Shown here piece by piece: positions 703-54,853 of a stretch of DNA of 64,000 nucleotides. A program made the position numbers and the translations under genes. Within the stretch, counting starts at the first letter, position 1, and every line of letters begins with the position of its first letter. The DNA is taken from NCBI GenBank assembly GCA_947647735.1, contig CANSLJ010000019.1, positions 19,853 to 83,852 on the forward strand, in the 5' to 3' direction. The notes beneath the pieces were generated by a model, which was given only the letters and a program-made list of their open reading frames with translations, searched no databases and was not told where the DNA came from. This stretch comes from an uncultured bacterium (GTDB lineage: Bacteria > Bacillota > Clostridia > Lachnospirales > Lachnospiraceae).

Positions 703-779
703 CTTTCCTCTCCTATTCTGATCATACATAAATCCTTCCGATACGCACATACCAAAAGTAATTTTAACAAATCTCCGCT

Positions 780-1717: not shown

Positions 1718-1825
1718 GTCTATTCCTCCTGCAATCTTTCAGTATATGTTGATTCTACCTCAAAATATTGTTTTCGTAAACCACAAATCTGATGCTGTTG
1801 TGATATTGCCGCCAATTCAGAGCGC

Positions 1826-3406: not shown

Positions 3407-3436
3407 CTATCATTCTCCTATTCCAGTTCAACTTTC

Positions 3437-3469
3437 AAAATCCCGCAGCCACCTTGGCAACTGCGGGAT
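3437..3469 (-). terminator. Rho-independent terminator of the phosphofructokinase gene
   Basis: A 9-bp perfect stem (3440-3448 with 3461-3469, core TCCCGCAG) and a 12-base loop. On the minus strand it is followed by a short TTTT run, 58 bp past the pfkA stop and just before dnaX. The short T-run may allow read-through into dnaX. Confidence 0.7.
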
Positions 3470-3527
3470 CACCTTACATTTTTCCTTATTGTTCTCTCTG
3501 AGCGGACTCCATCACCACTTTAAAAAA

Positions 3528-8556: not shown

Positions 8557-8592
8557 CCTGATACCTCCATCCTCTTTTCGCTCGTTTTATAT

Positions 8593-8606
8593 CTTGTTTA
8601 AACATG
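8593..8606. promoter_or_regulatory. Trehalose operator 1
   Basis: CTTGTTTAAACATG, with a perfect 10-bp palindrome at 8595-8604. It lies just downstream of the predicted treP transcription start. It is identical over 14 bp to operator 2. Confidence 0.75.
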
Positions 8607-8616
8607 TTATGTCTCT

Positions 8617-8645
8617 TTTATATCATACTTGTTTAAACATGTCAA
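8617..8645 (-). promoter_or_regulatory. Predicted treP promoter
   Basis: On the minus strand: -35 TTGACA (8645-8640), 17-bp spacer, -10 TATAAA (8622-8617). Operator 2 fills the spacer, so a bound regulator would block RNA polymerase directly. Confidence 0.75.
8628..8642. promoter_or_regulatory. Trehalose operator 2, inside the treP promoter spacer
   Basis: CTTGTTTAAACATG with the same perfect palindrome at 8630-8639. Its centre is 35 bp from operator 1 and 32 bp from operator 3, close to three helical turns each. Confidence 0.78.
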
Positions 8646-8660
8646 CATATTTTCAAAAAT

Positions 8661-8673
8661 TTGTTTGAACAAG
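8661..8673. promoter_or_regulatory. Trehalose operator 3, beside the treR promoter
   Basis: TTGTTTGAACAAG, one base different from the core of operators 1 and 2. It ends four bases before the predicted treR -35 element, so it may serve autoregulation or looping with the other two sites. Confidence 0.7.
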
Positions 8674-8676
8674 TCG

Positions 8677-8705
8677 TTGATTTTTTTTCTTCCGCTGTTT
8701 ATACT
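8677..8705 (+). promoter_or_regulatory. Predicted treR promoter
   Basis: -35 TTGATT (8677-8682), 17-bp spacer, -10 TATACT (8700-8705). Predicted start near 8712, about 25 bases before the ATG at 8737. Confidence 0.65.
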
Positions 8706-8736
8706 AAATATAAAAAACGAGAAAATGAGGTTTCAA

Positions 8737-9468
8737 ATGCCTAAAAGTATTTATGAAAGTATTTATAAGGACATCAAACAAAAGATCGAAAGTGACACTT
8801 TCCCCTATCAGGAACTGCTGCCCTCGGAAAACAATCTGATACAGCGTTATAACTGTTCCAGAAATACAGTCCGCCGGGCGATCAGCCGCCTTGTTGCCGA
8901 CGGTTATGTCCAGACCATGCAGGGAAAAGGCGTGCGAAATATCTACCGCCCGATCGATCAGACCTCCTTCACATTAGGAGAGATTGAGAGCTTTAAGGAA
9001 TCCGCTCAGCGAAACGGGCAGCACCCCCGCACCGAAGTGCTTCTGTTTACCGAAATAAAGACGGATGAAAAACTTTCCCGCCGTACCGGTTTTCCTGAGG
9101 ACTCCGAGGTCTGCTATATTCAGCGTCTTCATTATCTGGATGAAGTGCCGCTGATCATCAACCATAACTATTTTCTAAAGGAATGTGTCCCGGGACTGAC
9201 CAGAGAGATCGCTGAAAACTCCATCTATCAATATCTTGAACAGGAGCTCCATATGACCATCGTCAACAGCCGCCGGATTATGACAGTTGAGAAGATAACA
9301 GAGATCGATGAGAAATATCTTGAACTGAACGCCGAGGATTATAACTGTATGGCGGTAGTCAGCAGTTATACTTATAACAGCAACGGCATTATGTTTGAAT
9401 ATACGCAATCACGGCACCGCCCTGATTATTTCCATTTTCAGGACAATGCCGTGCGAAAACCCGGGTGA
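8737..9468 (+). CDS. treR: GntR-family transcriptional regulator, TreR-like
   Basis: Predicted repressor of the trehalose genes. The 243-residue protein has an N-terminal GntR winged helix (about 3-70; LPSENNLIQRYNCSRNTVRRAISRL) and a UTRA ligand-binding domain (about 90-240). In known TreR proteins the effector is trehalose 6-phosphate. The longest ORF starts at 8629, but that would place the treR promoter inside the coding sequence; GAGG five bases before the ATG at 8737 sets the start. Divergent from treP with three operator-like palindromes between. It ends 31 bp from the convergent DUF362 gene. Confidence 0.9.
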   Translation: MPKSIYESIYKDIKQKIESDTFPYQELLPSENNLIQRYNCSRNTVRRAISRLVADGYVQTMQGKGVRNIYRPIDQTSFTLGEIESFKESAQRNGQHPRTEVLLFTEIKTDEKLSRRTGFPEDSEVCYIQRLHYLDEVPLIINHNYFLKECVPGLTREIAENSIYQYLEQELHMTIVNSRRIMTVEKITEIDEKYLELNAEDYNCMAVVSSYTYNSNGIMFEYTQSRHRPDYFHFQDNAVRKPG

Positions 9469-9499
9469 TATACCGCCCGATATACTTTTATTTTACAGG

Positions 9500-10381
9500 T
9501 TATTCAACCTCAACCAGCTCATACTCCCTGCTGCCAAAGCCCAGCTCCACAGCGGCCTCGATCGTATGCACCCCGTGGCGGGATTCTATCCGTTCCACCA
9601 GACGCTCCCTCCCCGGATCGTCGGAAGCATATACCAAATCAACACATGCCTGATCCAGCGCCACCGGATCAAGAGAGGACAGGATACCGATATCCTTCAT
9701 GCAGGGATCTTCCGCCACCGCGCAGCAGTCGCAGTCCACCGAAAGATTACACATAATATTGATATAGACAATATTTCCCTTAAAATAATCTACAACAGAC
9801 TTTGCCGCATCCGCCATCGCCTCACAGAACATATCCTGGGTTGCTGTACGGCTCCATATAACAGCCTGATCATCGGTATCTCCCGCAGAATGGATCAAGC
9901 ATTTTCCTGCTGTTGACGCACAGCCTATGGAAAGCTGCTTCAGCGCTCCGCCGTAACCTCCCATCGGATGTCCCTTGAAGTGCGACAGCACGATCATCGA
10001 GTCATAGTTTTCGATGTTCTTTCCCAGACAATTTTCCTTTAACACTTTTCCATCGGGAATCTTCACCCTCAGATCCGGTCCCTCCGCATCCATCAGATCC
10101 ACATCAAAGTACTTTGTCCAGCCATGGTTTTCCATCAGTCTATGGTGCTTTTCAGTGGAGTTCCGCTCCCCGTCATAAGCCGTATTACATTCCACAACCG
10201 TTCCGCCCACTTTCTCAATGACCGGTTTCCAGAATTCCGGATGCAGATAATTCTGATTCCCCTCCTCCCCGGAATGCACCTTGGCAGCCACTCTCCCTGT
10301 CAAAGGTTTTCCCAGCATTTCATACATCTCCAGCACTTTTTCCGGCGTGATCGTCCTCGTAAAATAAACCTTAGATTTCAT
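9500..10381 (-). CDS. DUF362 domain-containing protein
   Basis: A 293-residue protein with the DUF362 pattern: LSHFKGHPMGGYGGALKQLSIGC in the middle, a cysteine-rich segment (CNLSVDCDCC), then the conserved DIGILSSLDPVALDQACVDLVY. Homologues are often annotated as iron-sulfur or ferredoxin-like proteins, but no classical 4Fe-4S CxxCxxC motif is seen here, so a metal role is only suggested. The exact function is unknown. GGAGGG precedes the ATG at 10381, favouring it over the upstream in-frame ATG at 10402. It appears monocistronic and is convergent with treR. Confidence 0.82.
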   Translation of the reverse strand: MKSKVYFTRTITPEKVLEMYEMLGKPLTGRVAAKVHSGEEGNQNYLHPEFWKPVIEKVGGTVVECNTAYDGERNSTEKHHRLMENHGWTKYFDVDLMDAEGPDLRVKIPDGKVLKENCLGKNIENYDSMIVLSHFKGHPMGGYGGALKQLSIGCASTAGKCLIHSAGDTDDQAVIWSRTATQDMFCEAMADAAKSVVDYFKGNIVYINIMCNLSVDCDCCAVAEDPCMKDIGILSSLDPVALDQACVDLVYASDDPGRERLVERIESRHGVHTIEAAVELGFGSREYELVEVE

Positions 10382-10510
10382 CCCATACCCTCCAGCTTCC
10401 ATATATCATACACTACATTTTTTCTATTTCTCTTCCATTTTATCCCATGATCATGAAAATGTCACTGCTTTTTTCTCAGCCATTGCATCGCCGGTAAAAA
10501 CGCTTCTCTT

Positions 10511-13500
10511 CTATTTCTCCACCGAGATCTCCCCCGCAACCCATCTCCCGGTTTCATCTCTGCTGAGCGGTATACTCGCATAATCATAAGAATCTTCTCC
10601 CGCTTCCTGAATCGTCACCGTCATTGATATTGTCTCTCCCGCCTCATCTGAAAAGTTCCACGTCTCCATATCATAGGTAGTTGCTATCATCCCGATCCGC
10701 AGCGGGATAAAGAACTCATCCAGCGCTTCCATAGCCGCCTCCACCATATCTTTCAGATCCGCCGACTCTGTCTTTCCCAAAGAAAACTTACCGCTTCCCC
10801 GATACAACACTTCCGCCTCCAGACAGCCATCGCCATAGGCAGGCATCACCGAATCCTCCCTGCTGCCGCAGGAGATAAGCGTCCTGACCCTGATCTTCCC
10901 GTCCTGAAAAGCATAGCTCACTCTGGACGTATTGATCCTCAATTCCTCAAAGGACATTCCATCCCCGTCCTGCAGGATCGGAGAAATCTGCTGCCCCTCC
11001 AGCAGTATTTTTCTCTTTCCATCTTCTTTCTCCCAGGACAGCTTCCGCAACAGTTCCCCCGACCAGGTACCGCTGTGATACTCATACGCCTTTATCTGCC
11101 CTGCCTCTTTGTCCAGCATCCAAAGCTTCTCCTCCCAGATTCCGGTTCCTTCTCCCCACAGCAGCCTCACCGCCAGTTCCGCCTCACCGTCTTTGTCATA
11201 ATCCGCCTCCTGTATTTCCGGCGCCTGCATGGTGATCCCGTCCGTGATAAAAGGCACAGCTATCTCCGTATAAATCTCCCCATCCTCCAGGATCATGGAT
11301 CCATAATTTCCCGCACCGTATAATCTATAGCTGTCAGTTTTCCCCAGCAGATACAGACGCTCCTCAGCATCCCCTTCCGGTTCCGCCGGCAATTCAGAAA
11401 AGACGCTCTGTTCTCTGACATCTGCCACCGTCATTTCATCCGGCGTTCTATGCCACGGCTTACTGAGAAAACCCGTCTGCACCAGATCGATCTCCTCAAA
11501 AAGAACATTCTCCCCCCGACCAGTGACCCTGTCCACCGTATACCAGTCTCTTGTGTTGGCATTTCCGGCAATCTCGCCATCCGCATTCAGGAACTCATTC
11601 CTGTCATAAAGCCAAAGAGTGACCTGCCCTCCGTTTTCACTGTCTATTTCCACATGCTCCGGCATAAAACCATATTCCTGCAGATAATGATTCCCTGCCA
11701 TCTCGATCAGATCCTGATCGCTGTAACCATCTTTGTCCCCCGCTGATGCCATACTCTCCTCTGTATCCAAAGCATTCGCGCCATTTTCGGCATCTCCGTC
11801 AGTTGCCTGTTCCTCCTTATCCCGCACCAGCGCCTCGAGTTCCTTCTCCAGTACATCCGATCCTTTATCCGAAACAATAAGATGCGTCAGTATGACATAT
11901 CTGTCATTTTTCAGCACATCTCTTGCCGACTCCATATATTTTTCCACTGCGGGAATATGTTCTGCAGGCACCGACAGCCCTCTCTCGTCTCCGTAATAGT
12001 CCGCTGTCAGAATAATATCTTCATTCAGGCGAAAACGATCGTCCGCCCTCTCTGCCATCGAAAACCCGAAAGAATTTCCCAGACAGTTTTCCGGCAATTC
12101 CAATGTGAAAGCCCTAAATGTCGAAGATGCCCCGTCCGACATGGAGTGATCCGGCATACTGTAGGAAGCTGCAGTCTTCAGGCATGCCCCGGACTCACTG
12201 TCCGTTTCCACGGTTCTGGAAAAAATCACTTCCCCTCTCTTGGTCCTTCCCTTCTGCTCCCCCTCAGGCATCAACGCCGCACAATCCAGCACCTCCGCCG
12301 AGACAAGCTCTCCATACTCATATGCCTCCATATAAAGCCCGTAGCTCGCCGCATCCTCACTCAACCGGTATTTGGCCTCATAACTTTCTTGAAGCGGTAT
12401 ACTTGCCTCCTGTTCCTTTACTTCAACATATTGCCACTGCTTATCAACGCTCACGGAGCCGCTTGTAATACAGGCGCATATCCCAGCCAGGCCCAGCACA
12501 ACAACACTGATCCCCAGAACCCGCCAGGCCTTCTTTTTTCCCGTGATCCTCTGAAGGCGCTCCCTCAGATTTCTGGCGTTGCCCGACATCGCTGTAGTCA
12601 TCGAAAAACAGTCCGCCGGCGAACCTTTTACAAGTGCAAACTCGAGAAGCAGCTCCCCGTAGCGCTTCCTCTCTTCCCCCTTCATATGGCGCACCACCGC
12701 CTCATCGCAGGCAAGCTCACAGTCCTGCCTGGACAGATATGCCGCCAGCCACACCAGCGGATGATACCAGTACAGGCATACACAAGCCATCCGCAGGATA
12801 CCCCAGATATGATCCAAATGAGCATAATGGCACATCTCATGCCGCAATACATAGGGCAGAAGCTCCTCATCCTCCGCCAGTCTTTCCGGTATATAAATAC
12901 TCTTTCCGAACAGACAGGGCGTCGGCAGCCCTTCTACCACATATACTGCAAAATGTGTTCGCCCCGTCTTCAACACTCTACGGTTTCTCCTGAGGTAGCC
13001 GTTCAGCCGAAGGTGATATGCTGTCATTCCAAATGCGCACACAACACTTCCCGCTCCCAATACCAGAATAAACCAGGCCGGCACCTTCAGCACGTTCTGT
13101 ATATAGTGATGAAGCCTTACCTTCATGACCTGCTGCCAGCGCTCCCATTTTGAAATTCCATTACTTCCGTCTTCCGGATACTCCGGCTCCACCCCGGAAT
13201 CCGCACCGGCGGCAACTGTTCCCTTAGCTGTCTCTCCGCCATTTCCCCACAGATTCCCGTTTCCGGGCATCACTCCCTGTTGTGCTTCACTTATCAGGCC
13301 GTTCCCTTCAGCCTTTTCCAAAGCCTCTCCCGAAATATCCTCTTCCAGAGCCGCACCGCTGTCCAGGCCTTCTGTCAATCTCAGCACAGAAAAACGCCCC
13401 TCCATATCCGGCATCGGAAAAACAAGAAGTTTCATCACCACAAGCAACCAGATCGCATACCGCATCCTCGCACTGATATGGTTCTTGCACATACACCGTA

Positions 13501-13552
13501 AAAGTATGATAAACCCGATATAAAAGGTGATCGTAAATAACATCTCAAACAT
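10511..13552 (-). CDS. BlaR1/MecR1-like M56 metallopeptidase sensor with large C-terminal domain
   Basis: A membrane-bound sensor protease expected to act with the adjacent BlaI-like repressor. Membrane segments lie near residues 5-21, 31-47, 158-178 and 346-368. The zinc protease motif HEMCH is at 238-242, followed by the ACDEAVVRH glutamate segment. The remaining 640 residues are predicted extracytoplasmic. They lack the SxxK/KTG motifs of the beta-lactam-binding domain of true BlaR1, so the signal is probably not penicillin. A Ser/Gly/Glu-rich insert (about 60-135) lies between membrane segments 2 and 3. The blaI-like gene is 76 bp upstream on the same strand. Confidence 0.85.
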   Translation of the reverse strand: MFEMLFTITFYIGFIILLRCMCKNHISARMRYAIWLLVVMKLLVFPMPDMEGRFSVLRLTEGLDSGAALEEDISGEALEKAEGNGLISEAQQGVMPGNGNLWGNGGETAKGTVAAGADSGVEPEYPEDGSNGISKWERWQQVMKVRLHHYIQNVLKVPAWFILVLGAGSVVCAFGMTAYHLRLNGYLRRNRRVLKTGRTHFAVYVVEGLPTPCLFGKSIYIPERLAEDEELLPYVLRHEMCHYAHLDHIWGILRMACVCLYWYHPLVWLAAYLSRQDCELACDEAVVRHMKGEERKRYGELLLEFALVKGSPADCFSMTTAMSGNARNLRERLQRITGKKKAWRVLGISVVVLGLAGICACITSGSVSVDKQWQYVEVKEQEASIPLQESYEAKYRLSEDAASYGLYMEAYEYGELVSAEVLDCAALMPEGEQKGRTKRGEVIFSRTVETDSESGACLKTAASYSMPDHSMSDGASSTFRAFTLELPENCLGNSFGFSMAERADDRFRLNEDIILTADYYGDERGLSVPAEHIPAVEKYMESARDVLKNDRYVILTHLIVSDKGSDVLEKELEALVRDKEEQATDGDAENGANALDTEESMASAGDKDGYSDQDLIEMAGNHYLQEYGFMPEHVEIDSENGGQVTLWLYDRNEFLNADGEIAGNANTRDWYTVDRVTGRGENVLFEEIDLVQTGFLSKPWHRTPDEMTVADVREQSVFSELPAEPEGDAEERLYLLGKTDSYRLYGAGNYGSMILEDGEIYTEIAVPFITDGITMQAPEIQEADYDKDGEAELAVRLLWGEGTGIWEEKLWMLDKEAGQIKAYEYHSGTWSGELLRKLSWEKEDGKRKILLEGQQISPILQDGDGMSFEELRINTSRVSYAFQDGKIRVRTLISCGSREDSVMPAYGDGCLEAEVLYRGSGKFSLGKTESADLKDMVEAAMEALDEFFIPLRIGMIATTYDMETWNFSDEAGETISMTVTIQEAGEDSYDYASIPLSRDETGRWVAGEISVEK

Positions 13553-13628
13553 TTTTATCCTCCCCGCTGACCTTCTTCGATCTCATCCTGTTATCATAAG
13601 CCTTATACACTCAGCTCTCCGACAGCTT

Positions 13629-14012
13629 TCAGCTTTCAAATCCTTCTTCAGCCTGCTCCAGAATCTTATACAGTTCCGCCACCTCTTCACGGGACAGCGC
13701 CCTTTGCTGTACCATCGTATTTAACATCATCCCCATTCTTCCCTGAAAAACTCTGTCCAGAAAATCCTCCGTCTCCTTAAAGACAGCCTCCTCCTTTTTC
13801 AGATCCGGATAATAAAGGCGAGCCTTCTCTCCCTCCTCATAATGAAGCGCGCCCTTTTCCTCCATGCGTTTCAGAAACGACATCACCGTATGCTTCGTCC
13901 ACCCCGTTTCCGCCTTCAACGCATTCGTGATCTGCATCATCGTCCGTGGTGCGCTTTCCCACAATAAATTCATGATCTTCCATTCTGCATCCGATAAATT
14001 TACTTTTTTCAT
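13629..14012 (-). CDS. BlaI/MecI family transcriptional repressor
   Basis: A 127-residue penicillinase-repressor family protein. The N-terminal winged helix (about 1-72) contains LSDAEWKIMNLLWESAPRTM and TKHTVMSFLKRMEEKGAL; the C-terminal helices (about 85-127) dimerise. In the known systems the cognate sensor triggers cleavage near the domain junction. It is first in a unit with the M56 sensor gene. The likely promoter is the inverted-repeat region at 14093-14148, about 80 bp upstream. Confidence 0.92.
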   Translation of the reverse strand: MKKVNLSDAEWKIMNLLWESAPRTMMQITNALKAETGWTKHTVMSFLKRMEEKGALHYEEGEKARLYYPDLKKEEAVFKETEDFLDRVFQGRMGMMLNTMVQQRALSREEVAELYKILEQAEEGFES

Positions 14013-14092
14013 ACCTCCTCCTATTCTACTATCTGATTCCCAATAACTCCCACGTCAGCTCCCATCCGCCCGCTTCGTCAGGCATCCAAAAA

Positions 14093-14148
14093 AGGTTGAC
14101 AAACGCTTACCTATTAAGTTTAATCTTTCAGTAAGCATTTGTCAACCT
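14093..14148. promoter_or_regulatory. Inverted repeat carrying two back-to-back promoters upstream of the blaI-like gene
   Basis: Arms 14093-14110 and 14131-14148 are inverted repeats (17 of 18 bases) around a 20-bp centre. Each arm contains a TTGACA. On the minus strand: TTGACA (14145-14140), 17 bp, TAAACT (14122-14117), pointing at the repressor gene. On the plus strand: TTGACA (14096-14101), 17 bp, TTTAAT (14119-14124), pointing at the hairpin element at 14202. The symmetry could be an operator. It does not match the usual BlaI TACA-TGTA box. Confidence 0.6.
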
Positions 14149-14201
14149 GTTATTAATCACTATCTTATGCCATCAACTAAATGAAAGCGGCTTCACAGCC
14201 A

Positions 14202-14336
14202 GCTGTCAGAGGATAGATACCCTATTCAGACTGTAGAAAAACGCCGGCACTTAGTGAGGTATTTTCGAGCTTAGTGTCCGTTGCGTTTTTCTCCAAGCGA
14301 GAGCGTGTCTGAAAAGGGTATCTATCCTCTGACAGC
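14202..14336. repeat. 135-bp long inverted-repeat element in the 345-bp intergenic region
   Basis: Outer arms 14202-14231 and 14307-14336 match at 29 of 30 bases. An inner perfect 10-bp pair (14235-14244, 14283-14292; AGAAAAACGC) and a third short helix (14245-14250 with 14274-14280) follow, so the whole unit can fold into one long hairpin. The apex holds two copies of CTTAGTG. No coding ORF is convincing here. It could be a dispersed intergenic repeat, a miniature mobile element or a structured RNA; it sits between the convergence of no genes, 21 bp past the stop of the 852-residue protein gene. Confidence 0.75.
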
Positions 14337-14357
14337 GTCTGGCGTGTCTGTCCCCCT

Positions 14358-16916
14358 CTACTGCGCAACCCTCATATACGTAATAAACCGGTTCCCGTTC
14401 TCCTCCAACATCGCCGTTGCATCATTCATCCCCACTTTATACACCGTACCGTCCTTCGGGTCCATCACCACGATATTCAGTTCATTAAACCCTACGATCA
14501 ACATTGCGCTTCCATCTTCCAGCGTGGTCAGCACCGGAATATCCTGATTGGTATAATACAGGATAGCATCCAATGTACATCCCGTCAGATCCAGAACCCG
14601 GATATCATCAATATTCTCCTGCAGTATCTCCACAGTCGTCATGCCGCTGTCCAGCATATACTGGGTGCTGCGGTTTACGCCTTCAAACTCCAGGATCGTA
14701 TTCAGACAGACCGCAAGCTGGCTGGTCACCTCATCCGCCGTTTCTCCACCGGTGATCTTCATGATCTGGTTTCTTGTCACACGGTTTCCTCTGTACCAGA
14801 CATAATTTCCCGTATCATCCGTCACGACGCCGGCCGCGTTATAAGCCGCATTAACAGCCATGGCCTCCTCCGTATACACCCCTGTCAATCCGTGGATCGT
14901 ATACACAAAAAACCGCTTCATCTCATCCGCCTGTTCCGGCAATGCAATCTGATTTTCTCCCTCAAACAACACCTCCCGGGGTGTCAGGAGCTGCAGTGTA
15001 TCCGCATCGATATTGCTTTTCACAACGATCTGCGTCAGCGTCTCCATCACATCCACAACTACCGTCTCCAGCAGATTCTTGCCCGCATCCTCTTTCTTGC
15101 TGTACATGATCTGGTCATTTTCCGCCTCCACATAAACCAGTTCGCCGCTTGCCTCATCAATCCCTTTTCTTACCCGGTAAAGCATGATCTGATTTTCCTG
15201 CACGCTGCAGGATGTGACATATATGTCAGGTACTGCATATTCTTTTAATACATTTTCCTGCTCATCCTGGATCCGCACCGTGTGCATCGGAAAAGATGTC
15301 CTGCCTGAACTGTCCACCGCAATATCCTGCCTATCGGCAATCCCGTAGATCAGATCATCCCCCATAAAGCCGAGGGGCTGCACATAATCTCCGCCGCCCG
15401 CTTCTATGGTTGTCCGCCTTCCGCTCATCAGGTTCATAAACTGCATGGTCTCTGCCGCATATCTGCCACCCTCTATCCACGCCAGCATCTTCCCGTTCTC
15501 TGAAACCCTGAAGCTGTCCTCATCCAGATCGGAAGCAATGATCCTGCACTGTCTGGAAGAAAGGTTCATCTCGTAGATGGCAGCGTCCACCATCATATAA
15601 AATCTGCCGTTATTTCCCGCAAAGGACAGCTTGTTCATATCCTGCTCCAGCAGCTCCGGAGATTTGGTATAGGGGATAAAAACAAGCTCCTCTATCGTGT
15701 TCTGGCTGCTGTTATAATAGCTTACCTGTACCCCATTCTGTCCCTCATGGTGGCCTCTGTTCATATAGCCATACACAACAAACTGTACATTCCCGGCTTC
15801 GTCCACATTCAGTACCTTGATGGTATGCTTGTCATACACCGTGCGCCTGTCATGATTGTCCTCATTCTGAAAGCTGAACAAAAGCGCCAGCTTATTATCC
15901 GCCACATTATAGGAAAACAGCCTGTTCCCCGCCACAAATGCCAGGATATTGCCGCCATCGCATTCTGTCAGTTTTGCCTGCCCCTCTGCCTGAATCCCCA
16001 GTGATATCTTATTGTTATTGTAAACACTTTTTTTCTCGTCGAAGATCTGGCTCATCTCACGCTCAAAATCAAGCAGGTATATCCTCTCACTGGTATACCT
16101 GATCCGATAATATTCCGCAACGAGATAGCTTTCTCGCCTGCCTTCATAGGGAATCTCCACCTGATAATGCACCTGAAAAGACGCAGTCTGCGGCATCATC
16201 TCTTTAATATCCACAACCGCCTCGGATGTTTTTTCCACCGAAAGATCACCCCAAGTCACCTGATTCCAACTGCTGTGGATATCCACCCTGCTGAAGGAAC
16301 TATTATCCCCGTCCTTATTGGATTCCAGATACATACCAAGATTCGCTTCCACGTTCTCCTTATCAAAGGTATCATCATGGAACTTCCTCACAAATTCCAC
16401 CTTTTCCCACACGTGGTAATCCTCTCCCAGCAGGATCCGCGTATAATAGCGAACATCCCGTCCCGAGGCAAGCCTCAGACAGATGATCAGATTATACTCC
16501 TTCCCCTGCTCCAGCAGATCCTTTACCGTAAAATAAGCATTCAGGACGCTCTCTGTCTCCTCATACTCCGTAACTTCCGTCTCCTCGATCAGCCTGCCGC
16601 CGTCACTGCTCCTGACCTGATAGGAAACCGACTCAATGCCTGTCCCGAATTTTTCCACAGTGATCCCCAAGTCCCTGCCATTCTCCAACGGAGTGATCGT
16701 GTCCCGCATATAGGCGGCTTCCATCTCATCCCGATACCCGTGCAGACAATTCACCATCTCCCCCGAAACATTCATATAGACAAGCGGATAAGACGCCGGT
16801 CCCATCTCCGCCGTCATATCCGTATTTCCCAGATTCATAACTGTCTCAAATAAAAATAATGCCGCAAATAATACAATTCCAAAGAAAATTCCCTTTAATA
16901 CCGATTTCTTCATCAA
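14358..16916 (-). CDS. Exported or membrane-anchored protein of unknown function, 852 residues
   Basis: Function not recognised. An N-terminal hydrophobic segment (about 8-27) is a signal anchor, so most of the protein is outside the membrane. The middle (about 270-600) has repeating short strands and Trp/Tyr-rich turns suggestive of a beta-propeller-like domain (NKISLGIQ, NILAFVAGN, NGKMLAWIEGG). The last 140 residues (DAILYYTNQDIPVLTTLEDG, LIVGFNELNIVVMDPKDGTVY) resemble the C39-like peptidase fold but lack an obvious catalytic Cys or His. AGGAG lies just before the start. A hairpin at 16934-16950 separates it from the upstream gene. Confidence 0.75.
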   Translation of the reverse strand: MMKKSVLKGIFFGIVLFAALFLFETVMNLGNTDMTAEMGPASYPLVYMNVSGEMVNCLHGYRDEMEAAYMRDTITPLENGRDLGITVEKFGTGIESVSYQVRSSDGGRLIEETEVTEYEETESVLNAYFTVKDLLEQGKEYNLIICLRLASGRDVRYYTRILLGEDYHVWEKVEFVRKFHDDTFDKENVEANLGMYLESNKDGDNSSFSRVDIHSSWNQVTWGDLSVEKTSEAVVDIKEMMPQTASFQVHYQVEIPYEGRRESYLVAEYYRIRYTSERIYLLDFEREMSQIFDEKKSVYNNNKISLGIQAEGQAKLTECDGGNILAFVAGNRLFSYNVADNKLALLFSFQNEDNHDRRTVYDKHTIKVLNVDEAGNVQFVVYGYMNRGHHEGQNGVQVSYYNSSQNTIEELVFIPYTKSPELLEQDMNKLSFAGNNGRFYMMVDAAIYEMNLSSRQCRIIASDLDEDSFRVSENGKMLAWIEGGRYAAETMQFMNLMSGRRTTIEAGGGDYVQPLGFMGDDLIYGIADRQDIAVDSSGRTSFPMHTVRIQDEQENVLKEYAVPDIYVTSCSVQENQIMLYRVRKGIDEASGELVYVEAENDQIMYSKKEDAGKNLLETVVVDVMETLTQIVVKSNIDADTLQLLTPREVLFEGENQIALPEQADEMKRFFVYTIHGLTGVYTEEAMAVNAAYNAAGVVTDDTGNYVWYRGNRVTRNQIMKITGGETADEVTSQLAVCLNTILEFEGVNRSTQYMLDSGMTTVEILQENIDDIRVLDLTGCTLDAILYYTNQDIPVLTTLEDGSAMLIVGFNELNIVVMDPKDGTVYKVGMNDATAMLEENGNRFITYMRVAQ

Positions 16917-47609: not shown

Positions 47610-48059
47610 TTATTCTTCCAGCATACTTTCCAGATATCCTCTGTCCCAGAGCAGGATCTTTAACTTCCTCGCCGCCTCTACCGCGGGCTGGGTGAAGTAC
47701 TGGTTGGTCAGGACGGCGCCCACCATGCAGTCGTAGTAGTCCCGCCCGGCATAGGCCTCCTGAATGGCTTTTACGCCGACCGGGGTGGTGTAGCATTTAC
47801 ACTGGATCGCGTAGGTGATCCCCTCTTTTTCTGCCAGAATGTCGATGCCGTAGTCTCCGCTGCCCTTCGTCACTTCCACTTCCTGAAAGCCGCGTTTTAC
47901 CAGAAGGTCTGCGCAATAGTACTCGAAGTCATGGCCGTCCAGCAGGTCAAAATCCTTTCCGTATGTGCGTTTTTTTCTGACATGCGTTATGACAAGCCAT
48001 AAGCCTGCACATATAACAAATACTGCTATGATTGTAATGATGTATATTTTTGCATCCAT
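47610..48059 (-). CDS. Membrane-anchored Mrr-like restriction endonuclease domain protein
   Basis: 149 residues: an N-terminal membrane helix (about 4-24), then a PD-(D/E)XK-type Mrr domain with GHDFEYYCADLLVKRGF, the catalytic GDYGIDILAEKEGITYAIQCK (D, and Q-x-K) and VLTNQYFTQPAVEAA. Such anchored Mrr-like proteins are common in Clostridia; role unproven, perhaps DNA defence or turnover. AGGATT precedes the ATG at 48059, which is preferred over 48089. Confidence 0.82.
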   Translation of the reverse strand: MDAKIYIITIIAVFVICAGLWLVITHVRKKRTYGKDFDLLDGHDFEYYCADLLVKRGFQEVEVTKGSGDYGIDILAEKEGITYAIQCKCYTTPVGVKAIQEAYAGRDYYDCMVGAVLTNQYFTQPAVEAARKLKILLWDRGYLESMLEE

Positions 48060-48253
48060 AATCCTGTTTATTCCCCAACTGCTCTGCAAATGTCGAAAAT
48101 TCTTCCATATTATAAAATCACCATTTTTATATCCTTATTATACTGCAAAATTAATATTTTCCAATCTTTTTATTTCCCCTGTCTGATTCATCCGGTGCTA
48201 ATACATGCTCTCCCGTGCATATATTTTAAGGACTTACCCTCTCAGGAGCTTTT

Positions 48254-50164
48254 ATGCACATCCTATCCAGAATCCATAACCTTTCCACCCGTAAAAAACG
48301 ATTCCTTGTTCTGCCCTTTGCCTGCCTGCTTTTTCTTGCAGGATTTTCCGCTTTTTTTCTCTCGCAGAACGCCGCCTCTTATTTTGCAGACGCCTCCTAC
48401 AATAAACTCTGCCGGGAGATCTTTCGGAGCGAACTTACCGGTAACACCCTGACGCTCCACTATACGCTTCAGAATCCGGCAGATTACGGCATCTATGAGG
48501 ATGAAGCGCGCCTTCCCGTCTATTCCGCCGAAAACCGTGCCCTTTCCGGCGCCGCCGTTACGGACTGGTCAGAGCGGCTTTCCGCTATCGATCGGGAAAA
48601 ACTGTCTGATGAAAACAGATACAGCTATACACTGCTCACCCGTTATCTCGCCCTTCAGCAATCCCTGTCCGCCTATAGCTGCCACGAAGAACCGTTCTCC
48701 CCCAACAGCGGCATGCAGCAGACGCTCCCTGTCCTGTTTTCCGAATACCGGTTTACAAGGCGCAAAGATATCGACGATTACCTGTCCCTGCTCTCCCAGA
48801 CCGGCGATTATTTTCAGGGCCTCCTTGCCTATGAACGTGAAAAAGCAGATGCCGGACTTTTCATGTCCGAAGACAGCGCAGACGCATTGATCAGCGGGTG
48901 TGAGGATTTTATCACGGAAGATTCCATAAACAACGGTTCCCACTTTTTAGTGGATTCTTTTGCCGCCCGCCTTCTGGAGTTTCAGAAGACATATCCTGAA
49001 CTGCTCAGCGAAGAAGCCTTTGACACTTATTATCAGGAAAACGTAAGAATCTTAAAAGAAGATGTGATGCCTGCCTATCAGATGCTTGCAGAAGAAATGA
49101 CACAGTTGTCAGAAAATGTCTGTCACAGCGACACCACAGGCGGGCCCGATCGCTCCGCCGATTCTGATCTCGCCGGCAATCCCGGTGGTTCCGGTAAAAT
49201 CTCAGAAAAACAGAAGCACTACAGCCTTCTGATACAAAAATCTACCGGCTCATACCGCTCTCCGGAGGAGATCAGAGAAATGCTCTATGCACAGTTTGAT
49301 ACCCTGCACGCAGAACTGATAAACCTCAGAAAACAGGCGCAGGCCTCCCAAACCTCCGCCCGGCATACCCATCCTCTCTCTGTGGAAGACATCCTCGCCT
49401 TTTTGCAGGAGGATATGAAGGAGGATTTTCCCTCCCTCCTGTCCGGCTCTTCGGAACAGTCAAAGAGTCCGCTAAAAAAACAGCTTCCCGCTGTCTCCTG
49501 TGACATCAAATATATCTCCAAAAGCCTGTCCGCATCCAGCGCACCGGCTTTTTACCTGACGCCGCCGATGGATGCCTTCGATAAAAACGTGATCTATATC
49601 AACCCGGACTCTTCTTTAGAAGGCGCCGCTCTTTTTACCACCCTTGCCCACGAAGGCTTTCCCGGCCACCTTTACCAGACCGTTTATGCAAGAGAAAGCG
49701 GCATTGCGGACCGCCAAAACCCGCTGCGCGGCATTCTTGATTATCCGGGATACTGCGAGGGCTGGGCGCTTTATGTAGAACTGTGTTCTTATGACTATGC
49801 AGCCAGTTATTATACTGTTGATACGGAAGTTCTGAAAACCGCCCGTTCTCTGGAGCTTTGTCTATGCGCCCTGCTGGACCTTCATATTCATTATTATGGG
49901 CTTACCCTCCCTCAGGCGCAGGCTCTTCTTGCAGGTTTCGGTATTTCCGAAGATGCCGCAGCGAATATTTATTCCTATATTGAGCAGGAACCCGCAAACT
50001 ATCTGAAATATTATCTCAGCTACCTTGAGATCCTGTCCTTAAAGCAGGAAGCTGAAACGCTCTGGAAGGATGCCTATTCAGACTATCGTTTTCACCAGTT
50101 TTATCTGGATGCAGGCCCTTCGGACTTTCTGTCTTTGTATGAGCGGCTGCTGGCGGAACAATAA
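48254..50164 (+). CDS. DUF885 family zinc metallopeptidase, membrane-anchored
   Basis: 636 residues with an N-terminal signal anchor (about 16-37). The zinc site is HEGFPGH (H466 to H472) and the third ligand is probably E502 in YPGYCEGWALYVE, the M3-like pattern of DUF885. Probably an extracytoplasmic peptidase of unknown substrate. A Gly/Ser-rich insert (about 295-320) lies in the middle. Its TAA stop at 50164 is three bases from a relict spmB stop codon. Confidence 0.87.
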   Translation: MHILSRIHNLSTRKKRFLVLPFACLLFLAGFSAFFLSQNAASYFADASYNKLCREIFRSELTGNTLTLHYTLQNPADYGIYEDEARLPVYSAENRALSGAAVTDWSERLSAIDREKLSDENRYSYTLLTRYLALQQSLSAYSCHEEPFSPNSGMQQTLPVLFSEYRFTRRKDIDDYLSLLSQTGDYFQGLLAYEREKADAGLFMSEDSADALISGCEDFITEDSINNGSHFLVDSFAARLLEFQKTYPELLSEEAFDTYYQENVRILKEDVMPAYQMLAEEMTQLSENVCHSDTTGGPDRSADSDLAGNPGGSGKISEKQKHYSLLIQKSTGSYRSPEEIREMLYAQFDTLHAELINLRKQAQASQTSARHTHPLSVEDILAFLQEDMKEDFPSLLSGSSEQSKSPLKKQLPAVSCDIKYISKSLSASSAPAFYLTPPMDAFDKNVIYINPDSSLEGAALFTTLAHEGFPGHLYQTVYARESGIADRQNPLRGILDYPGYCEGWALYVELCSYDYAASYYTVDTEVLKTARSLELCLCALLDLHIHYYGLTLPQAQALLAGFGISEDAAANIYSYIEQEPANYLKYYLSYLEILSLKQEAETLWKDAYSDYRFHQFYLDAGPSDFLSLYERLLAEQ

Positions 50165-50185
50165 GTATCACAGACACCATACCAT

Positions 50186-50223
50186 CACTACGCTTGCCGC
50201 AATCCCCACACCTGTGGCAAGCA
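50186..50223. repeat. Left 38-bp direct repeat bounding the defence island (relict spmB 3' end)
   Basis: Matches 54353-54390 at 37 of 38 bases (mismatch at 50210). Contains a 10-bp imperfect inverted repeat (50192-50201 with 50213-50222). Read on the minus strand in the spmB frame, the codons continue past the repeat as VVMVWCL and stop at TGA (50168-50170). Confidence 0.9.
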
Positions 50224-50230
50224 ACATCTA

Positions 50231-50635
50231 TCATGCAAAAATAATAAACGGTTCATCATAATACGGAATCAAGGAATCATGTGTCAAAAACATTATATTT
50301 TCTGCCTTTGCCTGAGCAACCATTATTCTATCAAAGGGATCATTATGTCTTGGTGCACTCTCGTGTCGTTTTAATGTTTCCAATGCCGAAACATGTTTAT
50401 TAAAAACAGGCAATACAATATATCCGCTTTCTTCACATCCCTTTTCCAGAAGACTTCCATCAATGCGCAGTTTATCCGGATGCAACATGTGCTTTATTGT
50501 GATTTCCCACACAGAAGCTGTACTGTAATATATTACATTTCCTTTATCAAGAATGATATCTCTTGCCTGTTTGGGTAATTTAGGATCATTTAATACAGCC
50601 CAAATAGCTATATGTGTATCTATCAACACTTTCAT
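50231..50635 (-). CDS. PIN domain toxin, VapC-like
   Basis: 134 residues. Putative ribonuclease with the PIN acidic residues in MKVLIDTHIAIW (D6), ASVWEITIKH and NDPFDRIMVAQA. Its ATG overlaps the upstream antitoxin stop (ATGA). Its stop codon is 7 bp from the left direct repeat, so it abuts the island edge. AT-rich like the rest of the island. Confidence 0.9.
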   Translation of the reverse strand: MKVLIDTHIAIWAVLNDPKLPKQARDIILDKGNVIYYSTASVWEITIKHMLHPDKLRIDGSLLEKGCEESGYIVLPVFNKHVSALETLKRHESAPRHNDPFDRIMVAQAKAENIMFLTHDSLIPYYDEPFIIFA

Positions 50636-50889
50636 ATACCATTTACCCCAAACATTTCTGCAATCTCATTATTACACTCGTCTATATCGTAATCTGCATC
50701 AATAAGGTCCAGACCTTCCAAACTGCCAAGCCTATGAATGCCATTTCTTTCCATTGCTAATTTATTATTATCCTTTTTCGCCATTTGATCAGTTCTCATA
50801 AAACGCTGAATCATATCAAGTAAAAACTGTAAGTTATCATCAGACAATCCCTCAAGGGATTGAATCACCTGGCTCTGCAATACTGTCAT
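50632..50889 (-). CDS. Putative antitoxin partner of the VapC-like toxin
   Basis: 85 residues, probable antitoxin by position (directly upstream, 4-bp overlap) and size. The N-terminal half is helical (QSLEGLSDDNLQFLLDMIQRF), the acidic C-terminal part (DLIDADYDIDECNNEIAEMFG) may bind the toxin. No clear DNA-binding motif is seen. GAAGGTGG lies 8 bases before the ATG at 50889, so the longer ORF starting at 50946 is not used. Confidence 0.8.
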   Translation of the reverse strand: MTVLQSQVIQSLEGLSDDNLQFLLDMIQRFMRTDQMAKKDNNKLAMERNGIHRLGSLEGLDLIDADYDIDECNNEIAEMFGVNGI

Positions 50890-50989
50890 ATCAATTACCA
50901 CCTTCCTCATATATTTTTGTAACAATAGACACAACTTTATTAACATAACAAAGTTACAACCCTCATTTCAAATGGCAGGATTGATTTTA

Positions 50990-51047
50990 GCCCCTCCGGG
51001 GCATGATACCAGTTCCGTGTATTCCGTTCGCCCCAGCTCTGCTGGGG
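50990..51047. other. Two perfect GC-rich stem-loops in an AT-rich spacer
   Basis: GCCCC/GGGGC (50990-51002, 3-base loop) and CCCCAGC/GCTGGGG (51031-51047, 3-base loop). They lie 114-171 bp past the stop of the SIR2 gene and before the antitoxin. No T-run follows on the minus strand. They may separate the two units, or be part of a structured RNA. The remainder of the 271-bp spacer is AT-rich with nothing recognised. Confidence 0.6.
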
Positions 51048-51160
51048 GTAATAGACCGGATCAATTAAAAATTTATAAATCTTCTTTCCAAAATATATCG
51101 AATAACAAATGACCAGTTAATTATTAAATAATTAATTACTATTTATACAGATTCATCCCC

Positions 51161-54100
51161 TTAATTCTCTGAATTTAATGTATCTGCAAAATAACGAAAA
51201 TAAATATCTAAAAGTTCCCGATCAATTTGACTAATATTATATGCTACAACAAATCTTTCTGCAATATTCCTTCTTGTAGATTGTTTACCAGATATCTCCT
51301 TCAGAAGATTAGGTGTACATAACTTAACCCAGTTTACATCAAAAAAGCTATAATCAAAGTTTTCATAATCTATGAGCCATAAAGCAGATTTAATATTTTG
51401 TTCTTTCACAATATTGAGTAAACTTTCTGTATCAACAATAAGCCCTTTCAGATATAATTCAACAAGACCAAATATTAATGAATCATCATTTTGATTTCGT
51501 ATCATAAATGGAGTTTCTTGCTTTGTCCCATTTTTTAACTTTTTATTTTCATAGCAGGAATAAATAATTCGCTCAGCATTTTTATCAGGTGCTAATATAT
51601 TTTTGTTTACTAATAAACAATAAAAATCTATATCCAATTTTTCTTTTTTCAATTTCCAATCTTTATAAGCCAAACTGATTATATTTTTGCATTCGTCTCC
51701 AACATAGGGATACATTTCTACACATAACATTTTGCACTCATCAGAAATCAGCTTTGAAATGATATCTTTATCATCAAATAAATGCCCATATTTCTGACTT
51801 ATCCATGCACTTTGAAGAACCAAATTAATGTGTTTTAGCGATTCGGCTTTATTATCACACAAATACACAAGTTCCTTATCCAAAAGAGATTTAATATATC
51901 TGACATTATCATTTGTTAACAAGCCTTGCAACTCAGCATTTTTTATAAATAGAATTAGTATATTTTTATAAGTTCCATAATCATTACCAACTATCCATTT
52001 ATTAATCTTATCAAATGTTTTATCCACTACATTGCTATTAAGCTTACTATGCCCCAACAACAAAACTGCCTTCCAGAACACATTATCCCCTAAAAAGATG
52101 CTCTTTACTGGTCTCTTTTTATATTTAATAACTACGGTCAATAAATAATCTATTGCATCTTCTTCCAATGGAAGATTTATAGTAATGTTTTGTAGTAGTC
52201 TTTGTAAATTTTTTATCTCCTCAAATCTGAGCGCTATCATTAAATCAAATTTATTTAACGTATTCGCATGTATATTTCCGTTTTTAATACTATCGTTAGA
52301 AGCATCCATCTCACCTGTCATTACCGATCCAAAAATACTTTGAAAATATATTCTAAAAATCTCCCTGTTTTCTGCATATTGATCAACTGTCAGTTGATTT
52401 AGAACAATATAATTATAATAATTTTCCATACTTCTTCTCATAGAAGCAAATGCTGCTGTTCCACTGAAAAATATATAATTTGCTTTCGCCTGTTCTCTTA
52501 CTTTTTCAGATGTCAAATATGCATCTTGAAATAATGTATATGCTATATTAAAAGTATAAATATCTTTCAGAATTTTATTATTACCGCCAAAATCAGGCAA
52601 ACTTCTATATGTTCTATCCAAATTAATTGATTTTATTTCTTCACCTACTATCTTGGCATCTTCAATATTTACGCCGCTAATTATACCCTCTCTATCACTA
52701 ACTATCTTTCCCACATAAAAACGATTCATTTCAGCTATAAAATATCGGAAATATTCTTGGTGTCTATAAAAAATATTGGCAGCCATCTTAAAGCAATTAT
52801 AAGCATCAAGATATTCTTTTAATACATAATAAATATATCCTTGTTCCATATATAACTGAGGCCGACTCTCCGCAAGGTGAGAATTATTTTTATCAATAAT
52901 ATTTTCTAATGCCTGATAGTCAAAAGTATTAATCGCCTCAAACCATTCAGGCGTGTCATAATTCGTCAATTCTATACTATCCCGACGCCACTCGCTACTA
53001 TTCTTTAATGGACTGTATAGTTCTATATAACGCACATCACTTTTAACAAGAATATCCCAAATTGTCTTTATTTTTTCTCTATCATTTTTCTCCGGCCTAA
53101 ACCCTTTCAACAACTTGCCGATGTGCTCATTTATCTTCATTTCATCTTCATTTACCACTTGCTTACTGTCTGCTAAACTAATTCTTGTATACTGCTCATA
53201 CGCAAGATTCCTGATAAGTTTACCAGTCTCGTCTGTTCCTTTTACCATATTAAACTCACTTACGCATCCATTCTCAACCCTGATATCAGCTTTATAAAAA
53301 GCAGACTTTATATATCGATCACCTGCAAAATTCATGAACTTAAAAGGTTTTAAATCATCATATAGTTTATCTAACTTTGTAGGCTTGTCTTCAGCTAATA
53401 GCCATTTAAGCATATTAAGGAGATTCAATGTTAAATCATCTTTACTAAAATCTGTCTTCAGCTGAAGAGATGCATACAATACATTGATTCCAAGGTTTTT
53501 ATAGTAGTCCGCTTCATTCGCATCATATTCCTTACCACTTTCAATCAAATATGCTCTCTGAAAGTCTCCATCAAGAATATCTTTTGCCCATGAAAATATT
53601 TGTTTAATATCCGGATCACTAAAAGAATACCCCAGAAATAAAACAACCTTAGTACCGATAATAGATTTTACATAATTTTCAATCAATTTAAAATTTCGTG
53701 AATATGAGAGATAGTCATCTTCTTTCAGTACAAAATTATCATTTTCAAAATCTCCATGTATTTTGATGAGTTCTTTCCCTCCTTTTCTATAAGGGAGATC
53801 CGCATCTTTGCTAACCACACAGATAACTTCGCTATTATCTTCTGCTGCCTTCTCTATCAAATTATCGTAATTTGTCGTGATAATTGTGCGAGTATTCAGT
53901 TCAATAATTTTATCGTGAACCTCATGCTTTGGAAGAAAATCCCCAAATCTAAATACCTTACGCATCAACTGTGTATATTCCTTTTTTCCTCTGGCATTGA
54001 AATAGTATTGCGGAATGCGCAAAAAATCAAGCGGTTCATCACAAATACCTAAATGATCCGCAATTTCTTTTACTGCCTGCCCCCATGTAGGCATTCCGGA

Positions 54101-54223
54101 ACATATAGAAGCTCCTGCTCCAACAAATATAACTAATTGTTCATTATTTCTTGCCACAGTTATAAGTTTTTTAGATTCAATATAATGGTTTAAAATTCCG
54201 TTATCACTTATCACAATCATCAT
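51161..54223 (-). CDS. SIR2-domain protein, probable NAD-consuming anti-phage defence protein (DSR-like)
   Basis: 1020 residues. The N-terminal SIR2_2 domain (about 20-260) has the NAD-binding loop FVGAGASICSGMP (G35-S39), N118 in ITTNYDNLIE, and H156 in IKIHGDFEN, the Asn/His pair needed for NAD cleavage in related proteins, then LGYSFSDPDIKQIF. The rest (about 270-1020) is a long mostly helical region of unknown fold. Size and layout resemble defence-associated sirtuins such as DSR2, which sense phage proteins and deplete NAD; that function here is inferred. Markedly AT-rich. AGGAG sits just before two ATG codons and a GTG, so the exact start (54223, 54220 or 54214) is open. Promoter at 54277-54306. 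Confidence 0.88.
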   Translation of the reverse strand: MMIVISDNGILNHYIESKKLITVARNNEQLVIFVGAGASICSGMPTWGQAVKEIADHLGICDEPLDFLRIPQYYFNARGKKEYTQLMRKVFRFGDFLPKHEVHDKIIELNTRTIITTNYDNLIEKAAEDNSEVICVVSKDADLPYRKGGKELIKIHGDFENDNFVLKEDDYLSYSRNFKLIENYVKSIIGTKVVLFLGYSFSDPDIKQIFSWAKDILDGDFQRAYLIESGKEYDANEADYYKNLGINVLYASLQLKTDFSKDDLTLNLLNMLKWLLAEDKPTKLDKLYDDLKPFKFMNFAGDRYIKSAFYKADIRVENGCVSEFNMVKGTDETGKLIRNLAYEQYTRISLADSKQVVNEDEMKINEHIGKLLKGFRPEKNDREKIKTIWDILVKSDVRYIELYSPLKNSSEWRRDSIELTNYDTPEWFEAINTFDYQALENIIDKNNSHLAESRPQLYMEQGYIYYVLKEYLDAYNCFKMAANIFYRHQEYFRYFIAEMNRFYVGKIVSDREGIISGVNIEDAKIVGEEIKSINLDRTYRSLPDFGGNNKILKDIYTFNIAYTLFQDAYLTSEKVREQAKANYIFFSGTAAFASMRRSMENYYNYIVLNQLTVDQYAENREIFRIYFQSIFGSVMTGEMDASNDSIKNGNIHANTLNKFDLMIALRFEEIKNLQRLLQNITINLPLEEDAIDYLLTVVIKYKKRPVKSIFLGDNVFWKAVLLLGHSKLNSNVVDKTFDKINKWIVGNDYGTYKNILILFIKNAELQGLLTNDNVRYIKSLLDKELVYLCDNKAESLKHINLVLQSAWISQKYGHLFDDKDIISKLISDECKMLCVEMYPYVGDECKNIISLAYKDWKLKKEKLDIDFYCLLVNKNILAPDKNAERIIYSCYENKKLKNGTKQETPFMIRNQNDDSLIFGLVELYLKGLIVDTESLLNIVKEQNIKSALWLIDYENFDYSFFDVNWVKLCTPNLLKEISGKQSTRRNIAERFVVAYNISQIDRELLDIYFRYFADTLNSEN

Positions 54224-54276
54224 ACTCCTGTATTTTTCATTTTCATCTGTGGGAAAAATAGAATTTATCTGTTTTC

Positions 54277-54306
54277 ATTATAACATACTTTAAAAGATTC
54301 TCACAA
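54277..54306 (-). promoter_or_regulatory. Predicted promoter of the SIR2 gene
   Basis: On the minus strand: -35 TTGTGA (54306-54301), 18-bp spacer, -10 TATAAT (54282-54277). It lies inside the island, between the right repeat and the gene, so the gene need not rely on read-through from spmB. Confidence 0.6.
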
Positions 54307-54331
54307 ACCTTTCTTTCACTGTCCTTTTCTT

Positions 54332-54853
54332 CTACAGCATCATCTCCGTAAGCACTACGCTTGCCGCAATCCCCACGCCTGTGGCAAGCAGTGCCCCCGG
54401 CAGCGTCCACCTCGTCTTTTTCACCCTCGCCGCCATATAGTAAACGCTCATCGTATAAAAGCAGGTCTCCGTACAGCTCATCATGATCGACGTCAAAAGC
54501 CCCGTTCGGGAATCCGGCCCGTACTCTTCAAAAATATCCAGCACCAGCCCGGTTGCCGCCGAAGAAGAAAACATTTTGATAAACACAAGCGGAACAAATT
54601 CCGCGCCTATCCCCGCCCGCTCGGTAATGCCCCCGAAAAGCGCCCCCAGCATCGAGAGAAAACCGGAGGCTCTGAGCACTCCCACCGCGATCATCAGTCC
54701 CACCAGCGTCGGCAGTACCGTCACAACGGTTTTCAATCCGTCCATCGCCCCTTTCACAAAGGCATCATACACGTCGACCTTATTCAGGACGCCATTTAAT
54801 ACGATATAAAAGATCAGTGCAGGGATAATGATCACCGAAAGCCGCATCAACAT
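54332..54853 (-). CDS. spmB: Spore maturation protein SpmB, 3' end rebuilt by the island
   Basis: 173 residues, nucleoside-recognition (gate) domain membrane protein needed with SpmA for spore core dehydration. Segments GLKTVVTVLPTLVGLMIAVGVLRASG, SSAATGLVLDIFEEYGPDSRTG and MSCTETCFYTMSVYY are typical. The last codons differ from the relict copy at 50168-50223: here the frame ends VVLTEMML, there VVMVWCL. The reading frame is open, so function is probably kept. Overlaps spmA by 7 bp. Confidence 0.93.
   Translation of the reverse strand: MLMRLSVIIIPALIFYIVLNGVLNKVDVYDAFVKGAMDGLKTVVTVLPTLVGLMIAVGVLRASGFLSMLGALFGGITERAGIGAEFVPLVFIKMFSSSAATGLVLDIFEEYGPDSRTGLLTSIMMSCTETCFYTMSVYYMAARVKKTRWTLPGALLATGVGIAASVVLTEMML
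54353..54390. repeat. Right 38-bp direct repeat, inside spmB
   Basis: The partner of 50186-50223 (37/38). It encodes the SpmB residues ATGVGIAAS near the C-terminus. Its position inside a gene and the second copy 4167 bp away are the main evidence for the island. Confidence 0.9.

Follow-up and report, generated by a model that had tools for sequence, protein, structure and literature searches.

The 64,000-nucleotide stretch of DNA analysed here (the window) comes from an uncultured bacterium of the Lachnospiraceae (assembly GCA_947647735.1, contig CANSLJ010000019.1) and carries a compact island of 4.1 kb, which lies between a gene that is presumably spmB and a convergent DUF885 gene, and the main genes of which encode a SIR2 protein and a VapBC-like toxin-antitoxin pair. 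The island is bounded by a 38-bp direct repeat (50186-50223 and 54353-54390) whose copies are identical at 37 of 38 positions, the single mismatch being A/G at 50210/54377. Within the window this is the sole ungapped direct pair that agrees at 36 or more of 38 positions with a spacing of at least 100 bases, and its 31-bp core (50192-50222 in the left copy and 54359-54389 in the right) occurs at only two sites in the assembly (4.1 Mb in 63 contigs, 86.6% complete) when up to three mismatches are allowed. The G+C content of the island is 0.32, as against a median of 0.48 for 4.1-kb stretches of the window. An earlier reading made from the sequence alone (the original prediction) had described both the repeat, with one mismatch and with its right copy in the last codons of spmB, and an AT-rich island unlike its flanks; the coordinates of the repeat and the difference in composition are confirmed.

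As it now reads, spmB occupies 54332-54853 on the minus strand and encodes 173 residues, and the right copy of the repeat is located in its final codons. Its product carries a Gate domain (PF07670, E 3e-11) and otherwise matches one NCBIfam model, far under the cut-off, so that the name spmB is an assumption of the original prediction that is retained here. The product is 89-95% identical to those of six other genomes of the genus (G001, G003 and G005-G008) and 73-75% identical to those of G002 and G004. The DUF885 gene (PF05960, E 2e-72) occupies 48254-50164 on the plus strand in the left flank. The three main genes of the island are all on the minus strand, as is spmB, and encode a PIN-domain, VapC-like toxin of 134 residues (50231-50635), an antitoxin-like product (50632-50946) and the SIR2 protein of 1020 residues (51161-54223). 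The island had been said to hold these genes only, and this stands as far as the main open reading frames (ORFs) are concerned, but further ORFs of 40-98 residues exist, nearly all of them antisense to the three main genes.

Insertion of the island at the end of spmB

In the genome sets that were compared, each species is represented by one genome. At the spmB/DUF885 locus, the genes of the island are absent from all eight other genomes of the genus, and spmB is directly convergent with the DUF885 gene in six of them (G001, G003 and G005-G008), an mrr gene intervening in G002 and G004. When the flanks of the window are joined at the repeat, an intact spmB frame ending in ASVVMVWCL results, the stop codon of which (50168-50170) lies three bases from that of the DUF885 gene (50162-50164). 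The C-terminus of this joined product resembles those of G003 (ASVLMVWYL) and G006 (ASVVMVWNM). Thus the original prediction was right that an insertion had occurred at the 3' end of spmB, that joining the flanks would restore the frame next to the DUF885 stop, and that relatives with the two genes adjacent and no island should exist; the two findings that it named as damaging to this reading did not emerge, because the content of the relatives differs and a local duplication is excluded by the empty sites.

The side on which the native end of spmB is located was also examined, in G001, G003 and G005-G008. The 18 bases beyond the left repeat agree with the native spmB tails of G003, G006 and G001 at 14, 13 and 14 positions, respectively, whereas those beyond the right repeat agree at only 6, 7 and 6, and with the tail of G007 the corresponding values are 9 and 4. 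The bases on the DUF885 side fit the native tail and those on the spmB side do not, which indicates that the island parted spmB from its own last codons, leaving the severed 3' end (MVWCL and stop; 50168-50185, minus strand) beyond the left repeat. Because all eight congeneric loci are without it, the 4.1-kb island is a true insertion. The empty sites demonstrate insertion and not present-day mobility, and the island may be either a mobile cargo or a decayed remnant.

In place of the severed codons, the island side of the right repeat (54332-54352, minus strand) encodes LTEMML and a stop, a sequence that resembles the tails usual for SpmB in this family (LAGMM or LAGLML). When this tail was scored against 78 spmB tails (those of the 80 loci compared, minus L059 and L060, which were taken to be of the same genus), its score was equalled by a fraction of 0.001 among random frames from island DNA and of 0.0006 among those from host DNA, the random frames being ones with a stop after four to eight codons. 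A tail of the SpmB type on the island is not what duplication of a target would produce; it would be expected if the element were adapted to the 3' terminus of spmB or had captured a foreign spmB end.

The repeat further holds the inverted arms GCTTGCCACA and TGCGGCAAGC, which match at 9 of 10 positions around 11 bases and form an imperfect dyad of 31 bp (GCTTGCC..GGCAAGC). Such an arm match was reached by 5 of 4000 shuffles and by 5 of 753 host 38-mers. Read as 12-7-12, the dyad has the form of a tyrosine-recombinase core; by itself, it proves no enzyme class.

Cargo of the island

Compared alone with the solved chains of DSR2, the SIR2 protein matches over residues 12-256 (E 5e-43), with a weak collinear match at 949-1012, whereas a profile built from it and five relatives gives a match to DSR2 that covers positions 10-972 of 973 (E 4e-129). 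In addition, N118 and H156 of the window protein align with N133 and H171 of DSR2, which are catalytic according to the passages of PMC11087589 that treat these residues. The same source in part describes DSR2 as an abortive-infection NADase that is activated by a phage tail tube protein. The full-length profile match and the retained catalytic Asn and His thus make the SIR2 protein, as judged by homology, a full-length member of the DSR2 family, in agreement with its earlier description as a SIR2 protein of the anti-phage type, and by analogy it would act as a NADase in the manner of DSR2. The sensing part of the window protein has diverged, the strong match of the protein alone being confined to residues 12-256, and its phage trigger may therefore differ from that of DSR2; it also differs from DSR2 in being paired with a VapBC-like pair on an island bounded by attachment (att) sites. 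Matches to the SIR2 protein at E 1e-20 were found in 10 of 397 genomes of the family, the window genome included. No relatives were found in viral contigs or in phages, and a search of plasmids returned 19 records with a query coverage of at most 22%.

The vapC gene (PF01850, E 9e-11) overlaps the upstream antitoxin-like ORF by four bases, which is a layout of the VapBC type. The antitoxin-like ORF has no match in Pfam, PADLOC or NCBIfam; in relatives, a VapC homologue was found next to its homologue at 8 of 13 loci. Matches to it occur in 13 of the 397 family genomes (window genome included) and in none of the viral contigs. Most of the relatives align from residues 2-24 (one from residue 42), and one homologue begins MSTLQSQ where the window has MTVLQSQ, which suggests that translation starts near 50889 and that the ORF may be over-long. 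The VapBC-like pair would help to retain the island.

The original prediction had also placed a promoter inside the island. A promoter-like site (TTGTGA-18-TATAAT) is indeed located upstream of the SIR2 gene (54277-54306, minus strand), but 28 such sites were found where shuffled sequences gave a mean of 23.1 (standard deviation 4.8), so that they are not above expectation. Between the SIR2 and antitoxin genes, a G+C-rich stretch (50975-51060) contains two short hairpins, the stability of which is not unusual (z -1.55); it has no Rfam match and no second copy in the loci with which it was compared.

Recombinases, attachment sites and relatives of the cargo

None of the three main ORFs of the island matches a recombinase or relaxase (the ORFs of 40-98 residues were not searched against families), and the original description of a recombinase-free cargo is borne out to the extent that no recombinase is recognised inside the island. 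The genome has 12 Phage_integrase matches, all of them on contigs other than that of the window, C19 (serine recombinases elsewhere in the genome were not searched). A home-made profile, built from 11 of these 12 integrases (L037, which has an internal stop, was left out), detected no ORF resembling an integrase either in the window or in the preceding part of its contig (C19:1-19852), the scanned set containing no positive control. The sole match to this profile among the loci, L136, lies at the start of its locus and not downstream of spmB. With an assembly completeness of 86.6%, the gene of a helper may be absent from the data.

The original prediction had proposed that other cargo might lie between the same repeats, and that an integrase encoded elsewhere might accompany the same repeat. 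Neither expectation was realized: no other cargo was found between such repeats in 80 spmB loci, 396 family genomes and viral contigs, no integrase was found with the repeat elsewhere, and the genome holds no third copy of the core. The core was found in none of the 396 other genomes of the family, and in a scan of the nine genomes of the genus the full core occurred outside the window genome only in G003 and G006, at their unoccupied spmB ends. Among the best 80 of 582 spmB loci, 61 of which had at least 9.9 kb of downstream DNA, none had a repeated spmB end downstream at 20 or more of 24 positions; the same scan recovered the repeat of the window itself at 24/24. Viral contigs yielded nothing useful, either by exact degenerate patterns of the core or by the SpmB protein. 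Searches with the core gave 13 matches at chance level (E 4) in phages and none in plasmids. In the sequences searched, spmB is not a common attachment site. A pattern of the arms only gave sites with two or three mismatches in six of the nine genus genomes (window genome included), controls giving zero to one per strand and genome; in the window genome there were two extra sites at three mismatches, with one control match per strand. One of these extra sites (C16:49107) is on a contig with an integrase match 42 kb away.

Direct repeats were also sought in 12 regions that carry relatives of the cargo (five DSR2-like and seven VapBC), all of them in contexts other than spmB. The cargo was bounded by a repeat in five of these regions (L142, L170, L169, L174 and L171); in L140, a 23-bp AT-rich pair bounds the gene in one of two repeat scans only, and the other six regions gave no cargo-bounding repeat. 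In L142 (genome G324), a repeat of 147 bp (3749-3895 and 16313-16459; 90% identity) encloses a DSR2-like gene in 12.6 kb, and the gene lies between the 3' part of an SRAP gene and an SRAP fragment that continues in frame to a different tail. The interval also carries HsdM, RhuM, IS110 and NERD genes or fragments, and the congener G428 has a second SRAP fragment, an N-terminal one, at a distance of 14 kb. On this arrangement, L142 is possibly a DSR2 island at the end of another gene. In L170 (genome G219), a repeat of 185 bp (7469-7653 and 10470-10654; 97%) encloses a VapBC pair, together with a further PIN gene, in an interval of 3.0 kb with 33% G+C, between two copies of the 3' end of a gene that we take to be flavodoxin-like; the complete gene was not seen there, and no recombinase was recognised among the ORFs searched.

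The remaining cases have other forms. The cargo relative in L169 is bounded by a repeat of 355 aligned bp (70%). In L174 (genome G280; 7325-16001), a repeat that reaches about 430 bp is present seven times, in full or in part, and the array so formed includes a VapBC pair as well as other small genes between the copies; the cargo-bounding repeat is one member of this array (82%), and the repeat has no Rfam match. L171 (genome G030; 1-3870) is a contig of 3.9 kb that begins and ends with the same 50 bases and may represent a small circular element; on it are a VapBC relative and a long ORF that apparently encodes a UmuC-type polymerase. Insertion is not established by an empty site for any of the 12 regions, and L142 and L170 are leads and not support.

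Origin of the island and comparison with known systems

The precise insertion, the unoccupied site in relatives, the 38-bp repeat, the SpmB-like tail and the lack of a recognised recombinase are direct observations, and the event behind them was probably a site-specific recombination that inserted a foreign element of 4.1 kb at the 3' end of spmB. A tyrosine recombinase would have recognised the 31-bp dyad, with its central segment of about 7 bp, both at attB on the chromosome and at attP on a circularised element, and this enzyme may have come from a helper acting in trans or may have been encoded by a larger parent element from which the integrase gene was subsequently deleted. By bringing its own last six codons, the element would preserve the function of spmB. 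The cargo is probably protective for the host, as, by homology, a NADase of the DSR2 type would deplete NAD+ upon sensing a phage protein, and the VapBC-like pair may, as an addiction module, counteract loss of the island.

Several observations weigh against site-specific recombination. The test of the tail was conceived after LTEMML had been seen, and the native, genus-type tail of the window itself scores poorly in it (equalled by 0.08 of random frames). The native-tail comparison does not discriminate in G005 and G008 (8 positions on the left and 9 on the right, of 18). The sole mismatch of the repeat falls on the border of the presumed overlap of 7 bases, a segment in which attP and attB are usually identical; it may have arisen later by mutation. 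The wobble bases of the host are present in both copies of the repeat, whereas G003 and G006 depart from them at 3 and 4 of 31 positions; this implies that the site of the element closely matched the window species, and would also be expected from a duplicated target. Finally, the island is a single occurrence, as neither another genome nor another cargo, integrase or att copy at spmB was found.

Some of these features suit other explanations. Donor DNA in which the DSR2 and VapBC genes already lay between two spmB ends could have entered by RecA-dependent homologous recombination, with no recombinase acting in this genome; the LTEMML tail, which resembles a foreign SpmB tail, and the host wobble bases kept in the repeat would both fit such an import. 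However, 38 bp offers little length for homologous recombination at each of the two ends, the donor itself would still have had to acquire its duplicated spmB end by a prior insertion, and the donor arrangement was found in none of the 80 spmB loci, so that we regard the import as unlikely. An unknown transposition or break-repair event that left a target-site duplication of 38 bp would likewise account for the wobble bases in both copies and for an insertion bounded by such repeats, but the three genes of the island include no recognised transposase, and neither the SpmB-like tail of the island nor the dyad in the repeat is predicted by target duplication. We know of no transposon family with a 38-bp duplication, and such an event appears distinctly improbable. 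That the end of spmB was duplicated locally, with no foreign DNA inserted, is suggested by the repeat being a piece of spmB; the relatives, however, are without the 4.1 kb at this locus, the G+C content is 32%, and the native tail is on the far side, and this explanation, already refuted by the empty sites, can be given almost no weight. Site-specific recombination is therefore retained as the probable origin, and the original interpretation as a whole is partly supported.

Islands that are bounded by att sites and carry no recombination genes have already been described. Cis-mobilizable elements (CIMEs), as presented in sections of PMC7563491 and PMC5704250, have att sites at both ends and no genes for integration or conjugation, arise by deletion from an integrative and conjugative element (ICE) or an integrative and mobilizable element (IME), and move by accretion with a related element. 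The island of the window is similar in its terminal repeats, in its lack of recognised recombination and conjugation genes and in its position at a gene end, but no parent, tandem element or remnant was found for it, and spmB is not among the CIME targets described in those sections. No shared att site was found either, and, since CIMEs descend from an ICE or IME, the island is at most a candidate for one. The H47 island of Escherichia coli (12.6 kb), according to parts of PMC3191183 and PMC5426353, has long repeats with four recombination segments; it is recombinase-free, its excision and integration have been shown experimentally, and it excises in E. coli K-12 by host functions (PMC3191183, in part). 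Both islands are small, bounded by direct repeats and without a recombinase of their own, whereas H47 is larger and its movement has been demonstrated experimentally, the island of the window being known from sequence alone. The integrase-only defence islands at E. coli hotspots, whose mobility is unclear, occupy a fixed chromosomal site, have no known transfer genes and typically carry an integrase or recombinase, as stated in portions of PMC10121019; the present island resembles them in carrying defence cargo at a chromosomal site with no known transfer genes, and differs in that no recombinase is recognised in it.

A text search for spmB with integrase returned only papers that are unrelated, as judged by their titles and the openings of their abstracts, and spmB looks new as a target. 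The novelty of the case consists in a very small, recombinase-free island, the spmB target, the replacement C-terminus, and DSR2 and VapBC as sole cargo. It is rather doubtful, although conceivable, that the island represents an undescribed class of minimal, recombinase-free defence and toxin-antitoxin cassettes, in which the cargo and an attP that encodes a replacement 3' end would be moved into and out of the end of a protein gene, here that of spmB, by a recombinase acting in trans; L142 and L170 would be two loose parallels. The island offers a small, clean case of an att-bounded defence system without a recognised mobility gene, for which the question of what moved it can be approached by polymerase chain reaction. 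It would also add a gene of the spore-maturation type to the protein-gene ends that are used as attachment sites, with a new C-terminus provided by the element.

To the left of the DUF885 gene, the window contains a gene for an Mrr-type restriction endonuclease (47610-48089). In two relatives of the genus (L008 and L009), the mrr homologue is located elsewhere, namely between spmB and the DUF885 gene, which indicates that the mrr gene has changed its place.

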